This document shows positions 30,956 to 47,618 of a stretch of DNA of 64,000 nt, piece after piece. The first letter of the stretch is position 1; the number at the start of each line of letters is the position of its first letter. This stretch comes from Symbiobacterium thermophilum IAM 14863 (lineage in GTDB: Bacteria > Bacillota > Sulfobacillia > Symbiobacteriales > Symbiobacteriaceae), in assembly GCF_000009905.1 (NCBI RefSeq), contig NC_006177.1, positions 3,048,595 through 3,112,594 of the forward strand, in the 5' to 3' direction. A program made the position numbers and the translations under genes. The notes below the pieces were generated by a model that saw only the letters and a list, made by a program, of their open reading frames with translations, did no database searches and was not told the origin of the DNA.

Positions 30956-31655
30956 GGATGACCCTCCCCGTCAGGTGTTGCACCATGGACGCAAACAGAA
31001 GGCGCCCGTCGGCAGAACCCAGAACCTGCTCCGTCGCCCGCTCGGGGTGGGGCATCACGCCGGCGACGTTGCCGGTCCGGTTCACGATCCCGGCAATGTT
31101 CTCCGCCGATCCGTTGGGGTTGGCCCCGGGGGTAACCGCCCCCTCCGGCGTGCAGTAGCGGAACAGGACCTGCTGGTTCTCGCTCAGGGCACGCAGCGTG
31201 TCAGGATCGGCCTGGTAGTTGCCCATCCCGTGGCTCACGGGGATCTTCAGCACCTGGCCCGGCCTGCACGCCAGGGTGAACGGGGTGGCCGCGTTCTCCA
31301 CCCGCACGCGGCTCCATCCGCACCGGTAACGCCCGTGGGCGTTGGGCCGGAAACCGCCGGGCAGGAGGCCCGCCTCGGTGAGGATCTGGAAGCCGTTGCA
31401 GATGCCCAGCACCAGCCCGCCCCGAGCCGCAAACTCGGCCACCGCCTCCATCACCGGGGCGCGGCAGGCGAGGGCTCCGCTGCGCACCCGGTCGCCATAG
31501 GTGAAGCCGCCGGGAATGACCACGGCGTCGTAGGGTGTGAGATCCCTTGCCTCGTGCCAGACGTAGTCGGCCTGCACCCCGACGACCTCCCGCAGGACGT
31601 AGAAGGTCTCCATCTCACAGTTGGTGCCCGGAAAGACGAGAATCCCGAACCGCAT
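30948..31655 (-). CDS. purQ: FGAM synthase glutaminase subunit PurQ
   Basis: Class I amidotransferase of 235 residues feeding ammonia to PurL. The nucleophile loop is [11 protein letters not shown], and [10 protein letters not shown] contains the catalytic His/Glu. [12 protein letters not shown] is the typical start. It directly follows purC after a 45-nt gap, where purS is found in B. subtilis and relatives; there is no room for it here. Confidence 0.95.
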
Positions 31656-31700
31656 GGCCCCCGCCTCCTCTGCGCCAGCCCGCGCTTCCGTCAGCTCCGT

Positions 31701-32618
31701 CTATCGCCGGCCCCCGCCCGCGCCGGCAGCGGTCTCCGCCAGCACCTTGCGCAGCCGGTCGAGCACATCCGCATACCGGCGGGCGGTCTCCTCGATCAGT
31801 TCCCCGGGCAGCTCCGGAGCCGGCGGCTGCTTGTTCCAGCCCGTCCGTTCCGCCCAGTCCCGCACCGGCTGCTTGTCCAGGCTGTCCACCGGCTCCCCCT
31901 CCCGGTACCGGTCGGCCGGCCAGTACCGGCTGGAGTCCGGGGTAAAGGCCTCGTCGATCAGCACGATCTCGTCGCCGACGAAGCCGAACTCGAACTTGGT
32001 GTCCGCCAGGATCATCCCCGCCTTCTCCGCCACGCCCGCAGCGTAACGGTAGAGGGCCAGCGACTTCTCCTTGATGAAGTCGGTCACCGCGTCGCCCAGC
32101 CGCCTGCGCACCTCCGCCTCCGGCACGTTCTCGTCATGGCCCCGGTCGTTCTTCAGGGCCGGCGTGAAGATGGGCTCCGGCAGCCGGCTGGAGAGCCTGA
32201 GCCCCGCCGGGAGGGGTATCCCGCAAACCGTGCCGGAGGCCTGGTACTCCTTCCAGCCCGATCCGGCCAGGTACCCCCGCACCACGCACTCGACGTCGAT
32301 GCGGCGGGCCCGGCGCACCACCAGCGACCGGCCCTCCAGGAGACGCCGGACGTCCCCGGGCAGGCCCAGGCCGCCGAGGTCGTCGCTGACAAGGTGGTTG
32401 GCGACGATATGCCGGGTCGCCCCGAACCAGAGCGCGCTGAGCTGGGTCAGCACCCGGCCCTTGCCGGGGATGCCCTGCGGAAAGACGACGTCGAAGGCGG
32501 AGAGCCGGTCGGTGGCCACCATGAGGAGCCGGTCCGCGTCCAGCTCGAACATCTCCCGCACCTTCCCCCGGTGCAGCCGCCGGAGGCCCGGGTCCGGCAC
32601 CGTCAGCAAGACGTCCAT
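31701..32618 (-). CDS. purC: SAICAR synthetase (long, Ade1-type)
   Basis: Ligates aspartate to CAIR; 305 residues, the longer form typical of fungi and many proteobacteria rather than the about 240-residue Bacillus form. Motifs: LHRGKVREMFEL, ATDRLSAFDVVFP, VRGYLAGSGWKEY, LPEPIFTPALKND, MILADTKFEFGF and LIDEAFTPDSSRYW, all with catalytic residues intact. ATG 32618 starts 1 nt after the stop of the degenerate PurC-like gene and lies about 8 nt after GGGGGG; GTG 32627 is an alternative. Confidence 0.93.
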   Translation of the reverse strand: MDVLLTVPDPGLRRLHRGKVREMFELDADRLLMVATDRLSAFDVVFPQGIPGKGRVLTQLSALWFGATRHIVANHLVSDDLGGLGLPGDVRRLLEGRSLVVRRARRIDVECVVRGYLAGSGWKEYQASGTVCGIPLPAGLRLSSRLPEPIFTPALKNDRGHDENVPEAEVRRRLGDAVTDFIKEKSLALYRYAAGVAEKAGMILADTKFEFGFVGDEIVLIDEAFTPDSSRYWPADRYREGEPVDSLDKQPVRDWAERTGWNKQPPAPELPGELIEETARRYADVLDRLRKVLAETAAGAGGGRR

Positions 32619-32619
32619 G

Positions 32620-33159
32620 TTACGCACCCCCCAGGAGCGCTAAGACCTCCTTCATGTCCTCCGATCCCAGTCGGCACTCCAGCGGGTTCATCACCTGCAT
32701 CAGGCAGGCGCCCTCCTCCGTCAGGCCGAAGCGCATGCGCAGCTGCAGCCGCTCCACGCCGCGCAGGCTGAGATGCGCCCGGAGCGTTCTGGCGGCGTGC
32801 AGCGCGGCGTCCTCGATCCGCTCCAGCCGCTCCGGCGTGAGCGCGGCCTCGGCCTCCTCACGGCTCAGCTCCCGATCCCCATCCCGGAAGGCGAGCCGGA
32901 CCTCACCCGGTCCGGCCTCGGCCGCCACCTCCACCGGCAGCGGCTGCACCTTGCGGATCAGGAAGGAACGGCTCGTGAAACGCGCCGCGAAGCTGGTCGC
33001 CAGGCCGTGGCCGACCAGGATCTCCTGGATGCGGAGAGCCGCCGCGCAGACGGTCTCGTCCTCGAACTCCAGGATCAGCCGGTCGGCCCGGTCGGTGGCG
33101 TGGACGGCCAGCCCGTCGCCCGCCCAGAGCCGCTCCCGCTTCAACACCGGTTCCTCCAT
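32620..33159 (-). CDS. degenerate short-type PurC (SAICAR synthetase-like) paralogue
   Basis: Protein of 179 residues that aligns by eye with Bacillus-type PurC along its length but is about 60 residues shorter. ERLWAGDGLAVHATDRAD corresponds to the LYEGKAKKIY start, SFLIRKVQPLPVEV to LIKKV..VPLEVVVRN, and LQLRMRFGLTEEG to LIDFKLEFG. The following DEISPD motif is replaced by VMNPLECRL, and the DFKLEFG acidic residues are lost. The middle segment with the Kxx..GDP motif is missing. SAICAR synthesis is therefore unlikely. It is an intact frame with an SD, one nt before the functional purC. A structural or regulatory role, or a decaying relic, are the options. Confidence 0.7.
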   Translation of the reverse strand: MEEPVLKRERLWAGDGLAVHATDRADRLILEFEDETVCAAALRIQEILVGHGLATSFAARFTSRSFLIRKVQPLPVEVAAEAGPGEVRLAFRDGDRELSREEAEAALTPERLERIEDAALHAARTLRAHLSLRGVERLQLRMRFGLTEEGACLMQVMNPLECRLGSEDMKEVLALLGGA

Positions 33160-33253
33160 CGTCCCGAACCCTCGCTTCACACTTGATCAGAACCTGTCCC
33201 TCCGCGCCCCGGGTTTCCACCTCGGACCCGGACGGGCGTTCCTCAGGCCTCCG

Positions 33254-33421
33254 CTAGATCCGGACCTGGGTCATGACCACGAAGGCGAAGGCGACGCCCA
33301 GCACGGCGGCCAGCAGCGCGCCCAGATGCCGGTTCCGGCTCCGGGGCCAGAAGTACATGACCACGACGGTGACGATCAGGCCCCCCAGGGCCCCGACGAT
33401 GATGCTGCCCAAGCTCGTCAT
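33254..33421 (-). CDS. 55-residue two-helix membrane protein in the pur operon
   Basis: Short gene starting on the purB stop (ATGA overlap). The reading is MTSLGSIIVGALGGLIVTVV, a loop with WPRSRNRHLG, then LLAAVLGVAFAFVVM and a stop at 33254. Two hydrophobic helices flank a basic turn. Codon use (C/G in third position) matches neighbours and the 4-nt overlap implies coupled translation. Function unknown; the place between purB and the PurC-like gene might point to the purine pathway at the membrane, or be a passenger. Confidence 0.7.
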   Translation of the reverse strand: MTSLGSIIVGALGGLIVTVVVMYFWPRSRNRHLGALLAAVLGVAFAFVVMTQVRI

Positions 33422-34731
33422 TCGATCAACCCCAGTCGCTTCATGATGGTATCCACATGACGCAGGTGGTGCTTCAGGTCGAAGGCGGCGTCCAACTCCG
33501 CAGGCGTGAGCAGCGCCTGCACCGTCGGATCCTCCTCCAGCAGCCGGCGCAGGTGGATCCCCTCCGCCCAGGCCCGCATGGCCTTCTCCTGCACGACGGC
33601 GTAGGCCTGCTCACGCGACAGCCCTTTCTCCACCAGGGACAGCAGCACGGAGCCCGAGGAGGTGAGGCCGTAGGAGGCCTGCATGGACCGCCGCATGTTC
33701 TCGGGGTAGACGTGCAGGTTCTCGATGATCCACGTCATCTTGTCCAGCAGGTAGTCGGCCAGGATGGTGGAGTCGGGCAGGATGACCCGCTCCACCGACG
33801 AGTGGGAGATATCCCGCTCGTGCCAGAGCGGCACGTTCTCCAAGGCCGCGATGGCGTTGGCGCGCAGGATGCGGCTGAGGCCGGAGATCTGCTCCAGGGT
33901 GACGGGGTTGCGCTTGTGGGGCATGGCGCTGGAGCCTTTCTGGCCCTTGGAGAAGGGCTCCTCCACCTCGCGGGTCTCGGTCTTCTGCAGCAGCCGGAGC
34001 TCGGTGGCCAGGCTGTCCAGCGAGGAGCCGAGGATCGCGAGGGTGGTGAGCAGGTGCGCGTGCCGGTCCCGCTGGAGCACCTGCGTGGAGATGTCGGCGA
34101 CCCCGAGCCCCAGCCTCTCGCAGACGTACTGCTCCACGAACGGATCGATGTTACCATAGTTGCCCACAGCCCCGGAGAGCTTACCGACGGCGATGGACCG
34201 GCGCGCCTGCTCCAGCCGGTCGGCGTCCCGCCGGAACTGGGCGTAGAAGACGGCCAGCTTCAGCCCGAAGGATGTCGGCTCGGCATGCACGCCGTGGGTC
34301 CGCCCCATGATGGGGGTATCCTTGTACCGCACCGCCTGGCGGCCCAGCGCGGCGATCAGCCCGTCCAGCCCCTTCTGGATCTCTCGGACGGCCTCGTTGA
34401 GCACGGCCGACAGGGCCGTGTCCACCACGTCGGTGGAGGTGAGGCCGTAGTGGATGTACCGGGCCGCCGGGTGGTCGATGCGCTCGGCCACCGCGGTGGT
34501 GAAGGCGATCACGTCGTGCCGGGTGGTCTGCTCGATCTCCGCCACCCGGCGGACAAAGGCCTCGTCCACGGTGAACGCCCGGGCCCGGAGCTCGGCCACC
34601 GCCTCGGCCGGGATGACCCCCAGCTTCGCCCAGGCCTCGCAGGCGAGGAGCTCCACCTCCAGCCACTTCTGAAAGCGATTCGCCGCCGACCACAGCTCGG
34701 CCATGCGCGGCCGGGTGTAGCGTTCAATCAT
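33418..34731 (-). CDS. purB: adenylosuccinate lyase
   Basis: Fumarase-superfamily lyase of 437 residues acting twice in purine synthesis (SAICAR and adenylosuccinate). Motifs: HYGLTSTDVVDTA, MGRTHGVHAEPTSFGLK, and the signature loop GSSAMPHKRNPVTLEQISG with the catalytic Ser. ATG 34731 follows GGAGGGAGAGG. It appears to be the first gene of the pur operon. Confidence 0.96.
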   Translation of the reverse strand: MIERYTRPRMAELWSAANRFQKWLEVELLACEAWAKLGVIPAEAVAELRARAFTVDEAFVRRVAEIEQTTRHDVIAFTTAVAERIDHPAARYIHYGLTSTDVVDTALSAVLNEAVREIQKGLDGLIAALGRQAVRYKDTPIMGRTHGVHAEPTSFGLKLAVFYAQFRRDADRLEQARRSIAVGKLSGAVGNYGNIDPFVEQYVCERLGLGVADISTQVLQRDRHAHLLTTLAILGSSLDSLATELRLLQKTETREVEEPFSKGQKGSSAMPHKRNPVTLEQISGLSRILRANAIAALENVPLWHERDISHSSVERVILPDSTILADYLLDKMTWIIENLHVYPENMRRSMQASYGLTSSGSVLLSLVEKGLSREQAYAVVQEKAMRAWAEGIHLRRLLEEDPTVQALLTPAELDAAFDLKHHLRHVDTIMKRLGLIE

Positions 34732-34808: not shown

Positions 34809-34840
34809 AGCGGGGCCCGGGGTCTTGCCCGAGCCCCGCT
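34809..34840 (-). terminator. hairpin after the purine permease
   Basis: AGCGGGGC (34809-34816) pairs with GCCCCGCT (34833-34840), extended inward by four more pairs past one mismatch. It lies between the permease stop and the purB promoter. No strong T run, so read-through into purB is possible. Confidence 0.55.
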
Positions 34841-34875: not shown

Positions 34876-36213
34876 CTAGAGGACGAAGTGCAGGATGAAG
34901 AAGCCGGCGAGCACCCACATCATCCAGTGGACTTCCTTGGCCCGGCCGGTGAGCAGGTAGATCACGGCGTAGGCGATGAAGCCCAGCGCGAGGCCCTCGG
35001 CGATGGAGTACGCAAACGGCATCATGAGGGCCGTGATGATCGCCGGCAGGGCGATGGCGAAGTCGTCCAGGTCGATCTGGGTGATGGAGGAGGCCATCAT
35101 GATACCCACGATGATGAGGGCGGGAGCCGTCGCGGCGCCGGGGATGGCCAGGAAGATGTCGGAGAAGAAAGAGGACAGGAGGAACAGGACCGCCACCGTG
35201 ACGGCGGTGAGCCCCGTGCGGCCGCCGGCCGAGACGCCCGCCGCGGACTCGACGTAGGTGGTGGTGTTGGAGGTGCCCAGCAGCGAGCCGATGATGGTGC
35301 CCAGCGAGTCCATGACCAGGGCCCGGTTGCCGCCCTTCATGTTGCCCTTCTCATCCATCAGGCCGGCCTTGGAGGAGACGCCCACAAAGGTGCCGATCGT
35401 GTCGAAGAGGTCGGTGAAGAACATCGCGAAGATCACGGCGAACATCGCGGGGTTCCCCAGGACGTCGAAGTCGAGCTGCAGGAAGGTGGGTGCCAGCGAA
35501 GGCGGAGCCGAGACCAGGGAGGAGGGCAGCTGGGTCACGCCCATCGGGATGCCGATGAGGGTGGTGATGAGAATGCCCAGCAAGATGCCGCCGGTGACCC
35601 TGCGGGCGACCAGGACGCCGGTGATGATGAGGCCGATCAGCGCCAGCATGGTGCCCGGCCGGCTGAAATCGCCCAGGGCGATGGTGGTCGCCTCGCTGGC
35701 CTCGACGATCCCGGCGTTGATCAGGCCGATCAGCATGATGAAGAAGCCGATGCCGGCCGACACCGCGTGCCGCAGCGAGAGGGGGATCGCCTTGATCATC
35801 AGCTCCCGCAGCCCGGTCAGGGTGACGATCAGGGCCAGCACGCCCGAGCAGAAGACCGCCGCCAGGGCCTGCTGCCACGGCAGGCCGAGGGAGCCGCACA
35901 GGGTGAAGGCGAAGAACGCGTTGAGACCCATGCCCGGCGCCAGCGCCACCGGCCAGTTGGCCACGAGGCCCATCGCCAGCGTCGAGAGCGCCGCCGCCAG
36001 GATCGTGGCCATGAAGATCGCCGACTTCTCCATGCCGGTGCCGATGGACAGGATGTCGGGGTTGACGGCGATGATGTACGACATGGTCACGAACGTGGTC
36101 AGTCCGGCCAGGATCTCCCGCTTGACGTCGGTGCCGTTCTCCGTGAGCTTGAAGACCCGATCGAGCAGCCCCTCGGACGTCTGGGACGGACGGATCGCCT
36201 CACGAGCAGCCAC
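34876..36213 (-). CDS. AzgA/PbuG-type purine (guanine/hypoxanthine) permease
   Basis: NCS2-superfamily proton-coupled nucleobase transporter of 445 residues in the COG2252 (AzgA/PbuG) branch, with about 12-14 membrane segments. Diagnostic stretches: EILAGLTTFVTMSYIIAVNP, ALAPGMGLNAFFAFTLCG, AVSAGIGFFIMLIGLINAGI and FFTDLFDTIGTFVGV. The GTG at 36213 lies 9 nt after GGGAGGCG; a longer frame upstream runs through the riboswitch. It is preceded by a ykkC-family riboswitch and followed by purB, consistent with balancing salvage and de novo purines. Confidence 0.9.
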   Translation of the reverse strand: MAAREAIRPSQTSEGLLDRVFKLTENGTDVKREILAGLTTFVTMSYIIAVNPDILSIGTGMEKSAIFMATILAAALSTLAMGLVANWPVALAPGMGLNAFFAFTLCGSLGLPWQQALAAVFCSGVLALIVTLTGLRELMIKAIPLSLRHAVSAGIGFFIMLIGLINAGIVEASEATTIALGDFSRPGTMLALIGLIITGVLVARRVTGGILLGILITTLIGIPMGVTQLPSSLVSAPPSLAPTFLQLDFDVLGNPAMFAVIFAMFFTDLFDTIGTFVGVSSKAGLMDEKGNMKGGNRALVMDSLGTIIGSLLGTSNTTTYVESAAGVSAGGRTGLTAVTVAVLFLLSSFFSDIFLAIPGAATAPALIIVGIMMASSITQIDLDDFAIALPAIITALMMPFAYSIAEGLALGFIAYAVIYLLTGRAKEVHWMMWVLAGFFILHFVL

Positions 36214-36277
36214 AGACAAACGCCTCCCAAACCAGATGATGGAATGATGATGCACGAACCCCCGGAACCCGAACGAT

Positions 36278-36321
36278 AGGCGGGCAGGTCTCCTCCCGCC
36301 TGGAGGGAAACCTGCCCGCCT
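36278..36321 (-). terminator. riboswitch-controlled terminator hairpin
   Basis: A perfect 12-bp stem, AGGCGGGCAGGT with ACCTGCCCGCCT, encloses a second stem CCCTCC/GGGAGG with loop AGGC. Its 5' arm is the 3' end of the ykkC-type aptamer, so the two folds compete. There is only a weak T content after it, so Rho-independent termination is likely but not certain; it could also hold a Rho or pausing site. Confidence 0.7.
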
Positions 36322-36425
36322 GGGATTTTCGCCCACCGGTGTAGCCGGACCCCGTCCGGCCTGTGCCGCTCGGTCGCAGACCGGCGCCGTACGGGCGCCG
36401 CGGAACCCTAGGCACACTTTCCTCC
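36302..36425 (-). promoter_or_regulatory. ykkC-family riboswitch aptamer, subtype 2 (PRPP or ppGpp)
   Basis: The minus-strand RNA contains the ykkC hallmark CCTAGGGTTCCGCGG, a P1 helix TGTGCC/GGCACA, a P2 hairpin GGCGCC/GGCGCC, GACCGAGCGG, a P3 hairpin GCCGGAC/GTCCGGC, then CTACACCGGTGGGCG and AAAATCCCAGGCGGGCAGG. The 3' extension CCCAGGCGGGCAGGTTTC matches, from memory, that of PRPP/ppGpp riboswitches (the T. mathranii structure), which guanidine-I aptamers lack. A P0-like pairing GGAGGAAA with TTTCCCTCC closes it. With a purine permease and pur operon downstream, PRPP is the most likely ligand, ppGpp the alternative. Ligand binding should block the following terminator (an ON switch). Confidence 0.82.
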
Positions 36426-36458
36426 GTCGCCGGCTGGGTGTTGCCGGCCTCTACTCTC

Positions 36459-36487
36459 ACTCTACGAATCGGACGAGCCGGTGTCAA
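36459..36487 (-). promoter_or_regulatory. permease/riboswitch promoter
   Basis: Consensus TTGACA (36482-36487), 17-nt spacer, TAGAGT (36459-36464). The predicted start near 36452 leaves about 27 nt before the aptamer. Confidence 0.8.
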
Positions 36488-36653
36488 CCTCATATCCGAA
36501 CTTTTTTCTGTTCAGAGCGTAAAACGTTCGGATGCAGGGCCGCGAGCCGGTTCCTGCGCACTTCCTCCAGTCCCGCCTGTCCTTCCACACCATGTCGTCC
36601 GGTGCACGCGACCGAGCTCCTGCCGCCCGCCGATCGCCAACCATCCCCTGTAC

Positions 36654-42635: not shown

Positions 42636-43925
42636 TTACTCGAACACCGTCTGCCCGTCCACCGGGGTGGTCAGCGCCTGCAGCGCCTTCATCACCAGCC
42701 GGCGGCGCAGGGTCCGCTCCTCGTCGGGCGGCAGCGCCGGGTTGCCCAGCGGATGGGGGATGGCCACCGCCGGCACGATCCGGTTGGCGCCCACGGTCAG
42801 CGAGATCGGCACCACGGTGCAGACGTGGACCACGGGGATGCCAGCCCGCTCGATCTCCTTCACCATCGTTGCTCCGCAACGAGTGCAGGTCCCTCAGGTG
42901 GAGGTGAGGATGACGGCATCCACCTCGTACTTCTTCAGGTCCTCGGCGATCTCCCGGGCGTAGGCTCGGGCGTTGGCCACCGAGGTGCCGTTGCCCACGG
43001 TCGCGTACCAGTAGTCGTGCAGCTTGCCGATGACGCCTTCCCGCTCCAGCTCCCGCATGACGTCCACGGGGAGCACCCGGTCGGCGTCGGCGTTGGCGTA
43101 GGTCGGGTCGTAGCCGCCGTGGGCGGTCTGGTGCGTCTCGGCGGTCAGGTCGTCGAGGTCACCCAGGTAGTACTTGCCGTACTTGGATGCTGAGGAGGAT
43201 TCGATGTGGTCCGGGTTGCCCTTGGGCACGATGCCGCCGGAGGTGACCAGGGCGATCTTCGCCTTGCTCAGGTCCTTCACCGGCGGGTTGGGCGGCACCC
43301 GGTCGAAGGAGGGCATGGGGTACTCGGTGGTGTAGGGCTCGCCTTTCAGCTTGCGCACCAGCATCTCCACCGCCCGGGCGGAGCCCCGCTCCGCCGCGAA
43401 GGTGTTGACCCGCAGGCCCCGTTCCAGATAGGTGCCCGGTTCGGGCTCCTGCCCCGCCGCCAGCCGCCGGATCAGGGCCGCCATGGCCGGGATGGCCGTC
43501 CGCATGGAGGCGGCGGAGTTGCCGGTCTCCACCACCCATGCGTACCGGCGGTAGACCTCCACGCCGGGATTCTCCAGGAACATGCCGGTCACGACGGGGA
43601 TCCCGAGCTCCTTGCTGACCACCTCGGCCACCGCCCCGCACGCCATGCCGTAGCGGCCGGCGTTGAAGGCCGGGCCGGCGACGACCAGGTCGGGGTTCTG
43701 CTGCCGGATCAGCGCGAGCACGGTGGCCTTGGCTTCCTCCAGGTTCTCGTTGAACCAGGAGTCGCCGCAGATCACGGTGGCCACGATCTCCCCGGCGTCG
43801 CCCAGGGCCGCCTTCAAGGCCATCCCGGGCCCCACCGGGCCGGGGCGTACCTCGGGCCGCACGCCGGCGTGCTCCTCACCTCCGATTCCACCGAAGAACT
43901 GGTTCAGGTAATGCACAATCCGCAC
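42636..43925 (-). CDS. grdB: glycine reductase protein B subunit, selenocysteine-containing
   Basis: Substrate-activating subunit of 429 residues. The UGA at 42896-42894 (residue 344) is read as Sec: the context VILTST-Sec-GTCTRCGATMVKEI is the conserved GrdB active site, and the frame continues without break to VDGQTVFE. The N-terminal IVHYLNQFFGGIGGEEHAG is family-typical. Ordinary gene finding would split it into a truncated gene plus a 76-residue ORF from 42866. GTG start with GGGGGG upstream. With GrdE it binds glycine as a Schiff base and passes the carboxymethyl group to Sec of GrdA. Confidence 0.95.
42867..42896 (-). other. grdB Sec codon and SECIS-like hairpin
   Basis: UGA (42896-42894) is followed 12 nt later by the stem CGTTGC / GCAACG with the loop GGA. 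A short stem with a G at the loop start and about 18 nt from UGA fits the bacterial SECIS bound by SelB. Confidence 0.75.
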
Positions 43926-47346: not shown

Positions 47347-47380
47347 AAAAAAAGGAACGAGCCAGCAAGCTGGTCGTTCC
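47347..47380 (-). terminator. terminator of the glycine riboswitch
   Basis: GGAACGA (plus 47354-47360) pairs with TCGTTCC (47374-47380), plus an inner CCAGC/GCTGG stem, followed on the minus strand by seven T. Its 5' arm overlaps the 3' strand of aptamer P1. Confidence 0.9.
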
Positions 47381-47583
47381 TCTGTCTCCTCCACCTGAGA
47401 GTTTGGCCGTGCGGGAGGCCTTGCTCCTTCGGTGCCGCGCAGGGCGGCTCTCCAGAGGGCGGGGGGGGGGCGCGCTGTGCACGCCCAGGCGACGGTCCTG
47501 GTGCCTGAGAGATTCACGGAGAGTCCGACCCCCTCCCCGCTTGCTCCTTCGGCGCTTCCCCTGAAGGAAGACTCTCCCGCCGC
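47381..47583 (-). promoter_or_regulatory. tandem glycine riboswitch
   Basis: Two gcvT-type aptamers. Aptamer 1 (about 47583-47489) has GGGAGAGTC, GCGCCGAAGGAGCAAGC and ATCTCTCAGGCACCAGGAC. Aptamer 2 (about 47458-47381) has CTCTGGAGAGCCGC, GCACCGAAGGAGCAAGGC and AACTCTCAGGTGGAGGAG, closed by P1 CCTCTG/CAGAGG. The linker holds a run of ten C (G10 on plus). Glycine binding stabilises P1 and should prevent the terminator, turning on trxBA-grd transcription. Confidence 0.95.
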
Positions 47584-47618
47584 CGGCCCCTCTATGCGCT
47601 ATGTGGTTTTCTACATTC

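Follow-up and report, generated by a model that had tools for sequence, protein, structure and literature searches.

Transcription of a purine permease gene in Symbiobacterium thermophilum IAM 14863, and probably of the purine synthesis genes behind it, appears to pass through a two-stage gate set by PRPP; we put the probability of this reading at about 0.82. The repressor PurR and a PRPP riboswitch, two sensors of one metabolite, would probably act in series. In the first stage, at initiation, apo-PurR sitting on a PurBox pair beside the -35 box would block the promoter and PRPP would release it, as in B. subtilis, where PRPP releases PurR and ppGpp opposes PRPP (PMC8789054). In the second stage, at elongation, the nascent-leader segment AGGCGGGCAGGUUUCCCUCC would pair with GGAGGAGACCUGCCCGCCU when PRPP is absent and transcription would stop before the permease; with PRPP bound, the same segment would be held in P3/P0 and the polymerase would pass. 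High PRPP, a sign that purines are scarce in relation to ribose phosphate, would switch on expression of the permease and, probably, of the pur genes as well. The effect of the alarmone ppGpp would fall mainly on PurR, because a PRPP aptamer binds it weakly, with a Kd of 91 uM (PMC6031431). Published constants suggest that the two thresholds differ: the Kd of PurR is about 5 uM (PMC8789054) and the T50 of a PRPP riboswitch is 40-90 uM in vitro (PMC5912903).

Layout of the locus

The window, the whole stretch of 64,000 nucleotides analysed here, comes from a closed genome of 3,566,135 bases. All its features at this locus lie on the minus strand:

36496-36531, minus strand: predicted PurR operator, two PurBoxes in inverted orientation, CCGAAC-N24-GTTCGG, 8 bp 5′ of the -35 box
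36459-36487, minus strand: promoter TTGACA-17-TAGAGT (0.3 expected in shuffles; geometry alike in relatives)
36429-36448, minus strand: short 5′ hairpin GCCGGC-N8-GCCGGC ahead of the aptamer, found in the genus only (spacer shorter in the sister genera G003 and G004)
36302-36425, minus strand: predicted PRPP aptamer including P0, P1, P2 and P3
36425-36418 and 36310-36302, minus strand: P0 strands GGAGGAAA and TTTCCCTCC
36411-36401, minus strand: signature CTAGGGTTCCG
36325-36310, minus strand: 3′ tail TCCCAGGCGGGCAGGT
36368, 36341, 36320 and 36312/36311, minus strand: aptamer residues C49, C75, G96 and G104/G105, numbered as in PMC6031431 by alignment
36278-36321, minus strand: terminator-type hairpin with a 12-bp outer stem (arms AGGCGGGCAGGT, 36321-36310, and ACCTGCCCGCCT, 36289-36278) and a poor U-tract
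36221-36228, minus strand: Shine-Dalgarno sequence GGGAGGCG
34876-36213, minus strand: AzgA-type (NCS2) adenine/guanine permease by homology, GTG start at 36213
34812-34840, minus strand: conserved 13-bp hairpin in the permease-purB gap, a candidate terminator or attenuator
33418-34731, minus strand: purB (adenylosuccinate lyase)

The first-pass annotation had placed the signature, helices, 3′ tail, P0 strands and 12-bp arm of a riboswitch here, and each was found at its assigned place on the minus strand. Its interval, 36278-36487, runs from promoter through terminator and leaves out the ribosome-binding site (36228-36221), the GTG start (36213) and the PurR operator (36531-36496), which had been overlooked altogether. 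Elsewhere the window holds tandem glycine riboswitch aptamers (47372-47589, minus strand) and a bacterial SECIS element (42856-42893, minus strand).

The proposed elongation stage

Residues G96-G105 of the ligand pocket and the 3′ strand of P0 both fall within the 5′ arm of the terminator-type hairpin (36321-36310, with an extension over 36310-36302). Terminator and bound aptamer would therefore be mutually exclusive, which bears out the exclusive folds and the ON switch proposed earlier at the level of sequence. The same overlap between aptamer and terminator is the published ON-switch layout of H. modesticaldum purB (PMC5912903). Minimum-energy folding yields the terminator form only, as expected, because the ligand is absent from the folding. 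Intrinsic termination at the hairpin is likely and could be weak, a clear U-run being absent after it both in S. thermophilum (UAUCGUUCGG) and in its close relative G002. These tails are also what would favour a platform that works mainly through Rho or translation behind a real aptamer. Such a platform is unlikely, given that all five Symbiobacteriaceae members (5/5) retain the 5′ arm overlap together with a long outer stem, that the sister genera G003 and G004 have U-rich tails after the hairpin, and that strong pairing with the ribosome-binding site was not seen. Sequestration of that site by the freed 3′ arm was rejected, the pairing amounting to only about 5 bp as judged by eye.

The proposed initiation stage

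A B. subtilis PurR operator is an inverted pair of 14-bp boxes, each built around CGAA and separated from the other by 16-17 bp, that sits just upstream of the -35 box (PMC8789054). The pair CCGAAC-N24-GTTCGG follows this Bacillus-type rule in the inversion of its CGAA boxes, in their spacing and in its position 5′ of the -35 box. No other match lies in the window, where shuffled sequence would be expected to give 0.01, and the shorter form CGAAC-N24-GTTCG occurs in the genome at this locus and at one GC-rich site. A PurR orthologue is encoded in the genome, scoring 290.5 bits against a curated cut-off of 258.7, and would be the protein that binds here.

The PRPP loop of this protein reads DDFMKAGAT. 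In B. subtilis the corresponding PRPP loop reads GGT. The change from GGT to GAT, in a PurR that is a predicted orthologue, is what can be said for regarding the PurBox pair as a relic and the riboswitch as the sole regulator. That view is improbable, since the operator core is conserved in 5/5 Symbiobacteriaceae genomes while the 24-bp spacer between the boxes diverges, and since the presence of the operator tracks that of PurR across distant groups.

The latter was seen in a fixed-pattern scan of species genomes and relatives, which gave at least 130 subtype-2 matches among the matches listed (at least 108 with G96 and at least 22 with A96), counts that are not frequencies. Among the matches listed, 12 of 123 riboswitches have a strict PurBox pair within 400 nt upstream, where 0.28 would be expected from same-locus density, and all 12 are PRPP-type. 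A two-box matrix was then built from 10 loci and used to score each upstream region, with its threshold at the 99.9% level of shuffled sequence. Among the matches listed, PRPP-type loci exceeded this threshold in 16 of 18 cases in genomes with PurR and in none of 62 in genomes lacking it. For loci outside the matrix the counts among the matches listed were 6/8 and 0/62 (P 2e-7, or 2e-5 with near-duplicates merged; both values are optimistic, as the loci share ancestry). The loci bearing a PurBox span Symbiobacteriaceae, Tumebacillus, Negativicutes and further Bacillota, and the gap from box to -35, counted from TTCG, is 8-9 nt in 14 of 17 among the matches listed. It is fairly likely that in Firmicutes with PurR the PRPP riboswitches as a rule sit behind PurR-repressed promoters, so that PRPP would be read twice in series at different thresholds and ppGpp only at the protein stage.

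Some relatives with PurR, for example in Tumebacillus and Negativicutes, combine a PurBox-like operator with both a guanine aptamer and a PRPP aptamer. Leaders with all three elements were seen at L045, L080, L057, L037, L055, L140 and L112, and three-input control of purine genes is possible there. Unlike these leaders, that of Symbiobacterium has no guanine aptamer.

Class of the aptamer

On its sequence, the element at 36425-36302 (minus strand) is a singlet PRPP riboswitch of ykkC subtype 2b. It has the ykkC scaffold of P1/P1a/P1b, P2 and P3 with CTAGGGTTCCG and ACACC, as well as a P0 helix (GGAGGAAA/TTTCCCTCC) that joins the conserved 5′ and 3′ tails and covaries in relatives. Subtype 2 is marked by a pyrimidine at position 49, which is A in guanidine-I aptamers (PMC6031431), and the PRPP class (2b) is set apart from the ppGpp class (2a) by G96 (PMC6031431, PMC5912903). 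A G96A change alone shifts specificity 40,000-fold (PMC6031431). Both markers are present, C49 at 36368 (in CCGAGC) and G96 at 36320.

Two models were compared at the locus: R1, a PRPP-type model of 47 non-redundant G96 aptamers from outside Symbiobacteriaceae, and R2, a ppGpp-type model of 15 A96 aptamers. R1 scores the locus at 95.5 bits, R2 at 61.4 bits, and the Rfam guanidine-I model RF00442 at 58.6 bits, its cut-off being 63. The match is far beyond chance, with E values of 5e-27 over 109 kb for R1 and 7e-10 over 611 bases for RF00442. Across the 47 sequences the helices, P0 included, covary, with 247 double-change cells where shuffles give 77. A separate guanidine-I copy in the same genome served as a control and gave 45.3 bits with R1, 35.1 with R2 and 90.1 with RF00442; the ppGpp-type control L053, which is within the R2 training set, gave 93.2 with R1 and 136.2 with R2. 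R1 alone is insufficient to tell PRPP from ppGpp, because L053 also scores 93.2 bits with it, and the decision rests on the difference between R1 and R2 together with G96. The earlier call of subtype 2 from the 3′ tail, with guanidine-I set aside, agrees with these scores and with C49. The comparison of models that it had called for placed guanidine-I below R1 and found covarying helices. Its ligand, given as PRPP or ppGpp, can be narrowed to PRPP.

A ppGpp riboswitch of subtype 2a, by which the alarmone would switch uptake on in starvation, is very improbable. Aptamers of that class share the scaffold, the pyrimidine at position 49 and the P0 helix between the 5′ and 3′ ends, and R2 still gives the locus 61.4 bits. 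The class needs G96 replaced, though, and here G96 is kept; R1 exceeds R2 by 34 bits. All 22 A96-type loci among the matches listed read ACCCnAGCGG where this locus reads TCCCAGGCGGG, and none of the 22 precedes a permease of the AzgA-type family. A guanidine-I riboswitch, after the name of the sole Rfam family that matches the locus, can be dismissed, for that match lies below the gathering cut-off, a C stands where the defining A is expected (position 49; A46 in guanidine-I), the genome carries its own true copy at 90.1 bits, and the genes nearby concern purines, not guanidine. Model scores and diagnostic residues thus rule against both identities. A tandem guanine aptamer was also rejected, RF00167 having no match in the genome.

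In the sister genus G003 two more ykkC subtype-2 RNAs were found, at L158 (725-856, plus strand) and L159 (2351-2482, minus strand), and both score better with R2 than with R1.

The permease and the pur genes

The first gene is, by homology, an AzgA-type permease, in agreement with the purine permease of the first-pass annotation. It matches PF00860 (NCS2) with 171 bits, and the closest solved structure is that of the adenine/guanine permease AZG1 (E 4e-66). A permease target is a recurrent context of PRPP riboswitches: among the matches listed, 22 of 108 with G96, at 20 distinct loci, are directly followed by a gene for a relative of this protein, as against 0/22 with A96.

The pur operon adjoins the permease as first described, beginning with purB at 34731 (TIGR00928, 517 bits) and running on through ORF186, purC, purQ and purL. 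In G003 the same control region lies directly before purB-purC-purQ-purL and the permease is absent, an arrangement suggestive of a role for the region in expressing the pur genes. Read-through into purB, put forward as a possibility at first pass, may occur in S. thermophilum. A 13-bp hairpin lies between the permease and purB and may end part of the transcripts. It is near-identical in four Symbiobacteriaceae genomes (genus Symbiobacterium and G004) while its flanks diverge, and the G002 copy is followed by TTTTT. A dispersed repeat was considered and rejected, the hairpin being single-copy in the genome.

Several features of the operon itself were observed. The closed genome gave no match to purS (TIGR00302), a model that matched 12 of 14 control genomes. 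In the congener G001 and in G003 purS lies exactly between purC and purQ, a position that corresponds in S. thermophilum to the gap at 31655-31701 (minus strand) of the window, and G002 has a contiguous operon with neither purS nor purQ. The de novo route to purines may be decaying in this lineage; if true, that would add weight to the purine permease. ORF186 (32620-33180, minus strand; 186 aa) fills the gap between purB and purC and resembles SAICAR synthetase weakly and in part (28 bits with NCBIfam, 22.8 with Pfam). G003 has a gap of similar size, so that ORF186 may represent a PurC paralogue that is degenerate but conserved.

Relation to known systems

The riboswitch class is known and its assignment here is ordinary. 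The PRPP aptamers of H. modesticaldum purB and T. mathranii (PMC5912903, PMC6031431) are alike in scaffold, C49, G96 and P0, in a terminator 5′ arm shared with the pocket and in the ON logic predicted here. The S. thermophilum system differs from them in its downstream permease, its weak U-tract and the predicted PurR operator at its promoter. With the tandem guanine-PRPP riboswitch (PMC5912903) it has the PRPP aptamer and platform in common, and lacks the guanine aptamer. The PurR regulon of B. subtilis (pur operon, pbuG) is alike in the PurBox pair by the -35 box, in permease and pur targets and in PRPP as inducer (PMC8789054). Symbiobacterium pairs PurR with a PRPP riboswitch, and its genome is without a purine riboswitch (RF00167). 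B. subtilis, in contrast, pairs PurR with a guanine riboswitch. A direct precedent for protein and RNA sensors of one ligand is E. coli mntP, where MntR and a Mn riboswitch act on one gene, first at initiation and then later (PMC11647493). That system differs in its metal ligand and in joining an activator to a translational riboswitch (PMC11647493).

Within the literature searched, which comprised the main texts of open papers, double control by PRPP is undescribed, and no paper was found that pairs a PRPP riboswitch with PurR or with a permease. PurR goes unmentioned in PMC5912903, and the words "permease" and "uptake" are absent from the main text of the PRPP-riboswitch discovery paper. An earlier listing of the S. 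thermophilum aptamer may exist in sources beyond the open texts.

Implications

The permease target adds purine uptake to purine synthesis within the PRPP-riboswitch regulon. The arrangement seen across relatives, if it holds, would amount to serial gating as a general architecture, one that is absent from the literature searched. It raises the testable question of why PRPP should be sensed twice on one promoter: the pair of sensors could sharpen the response, or it could separate starvation from purine demand.
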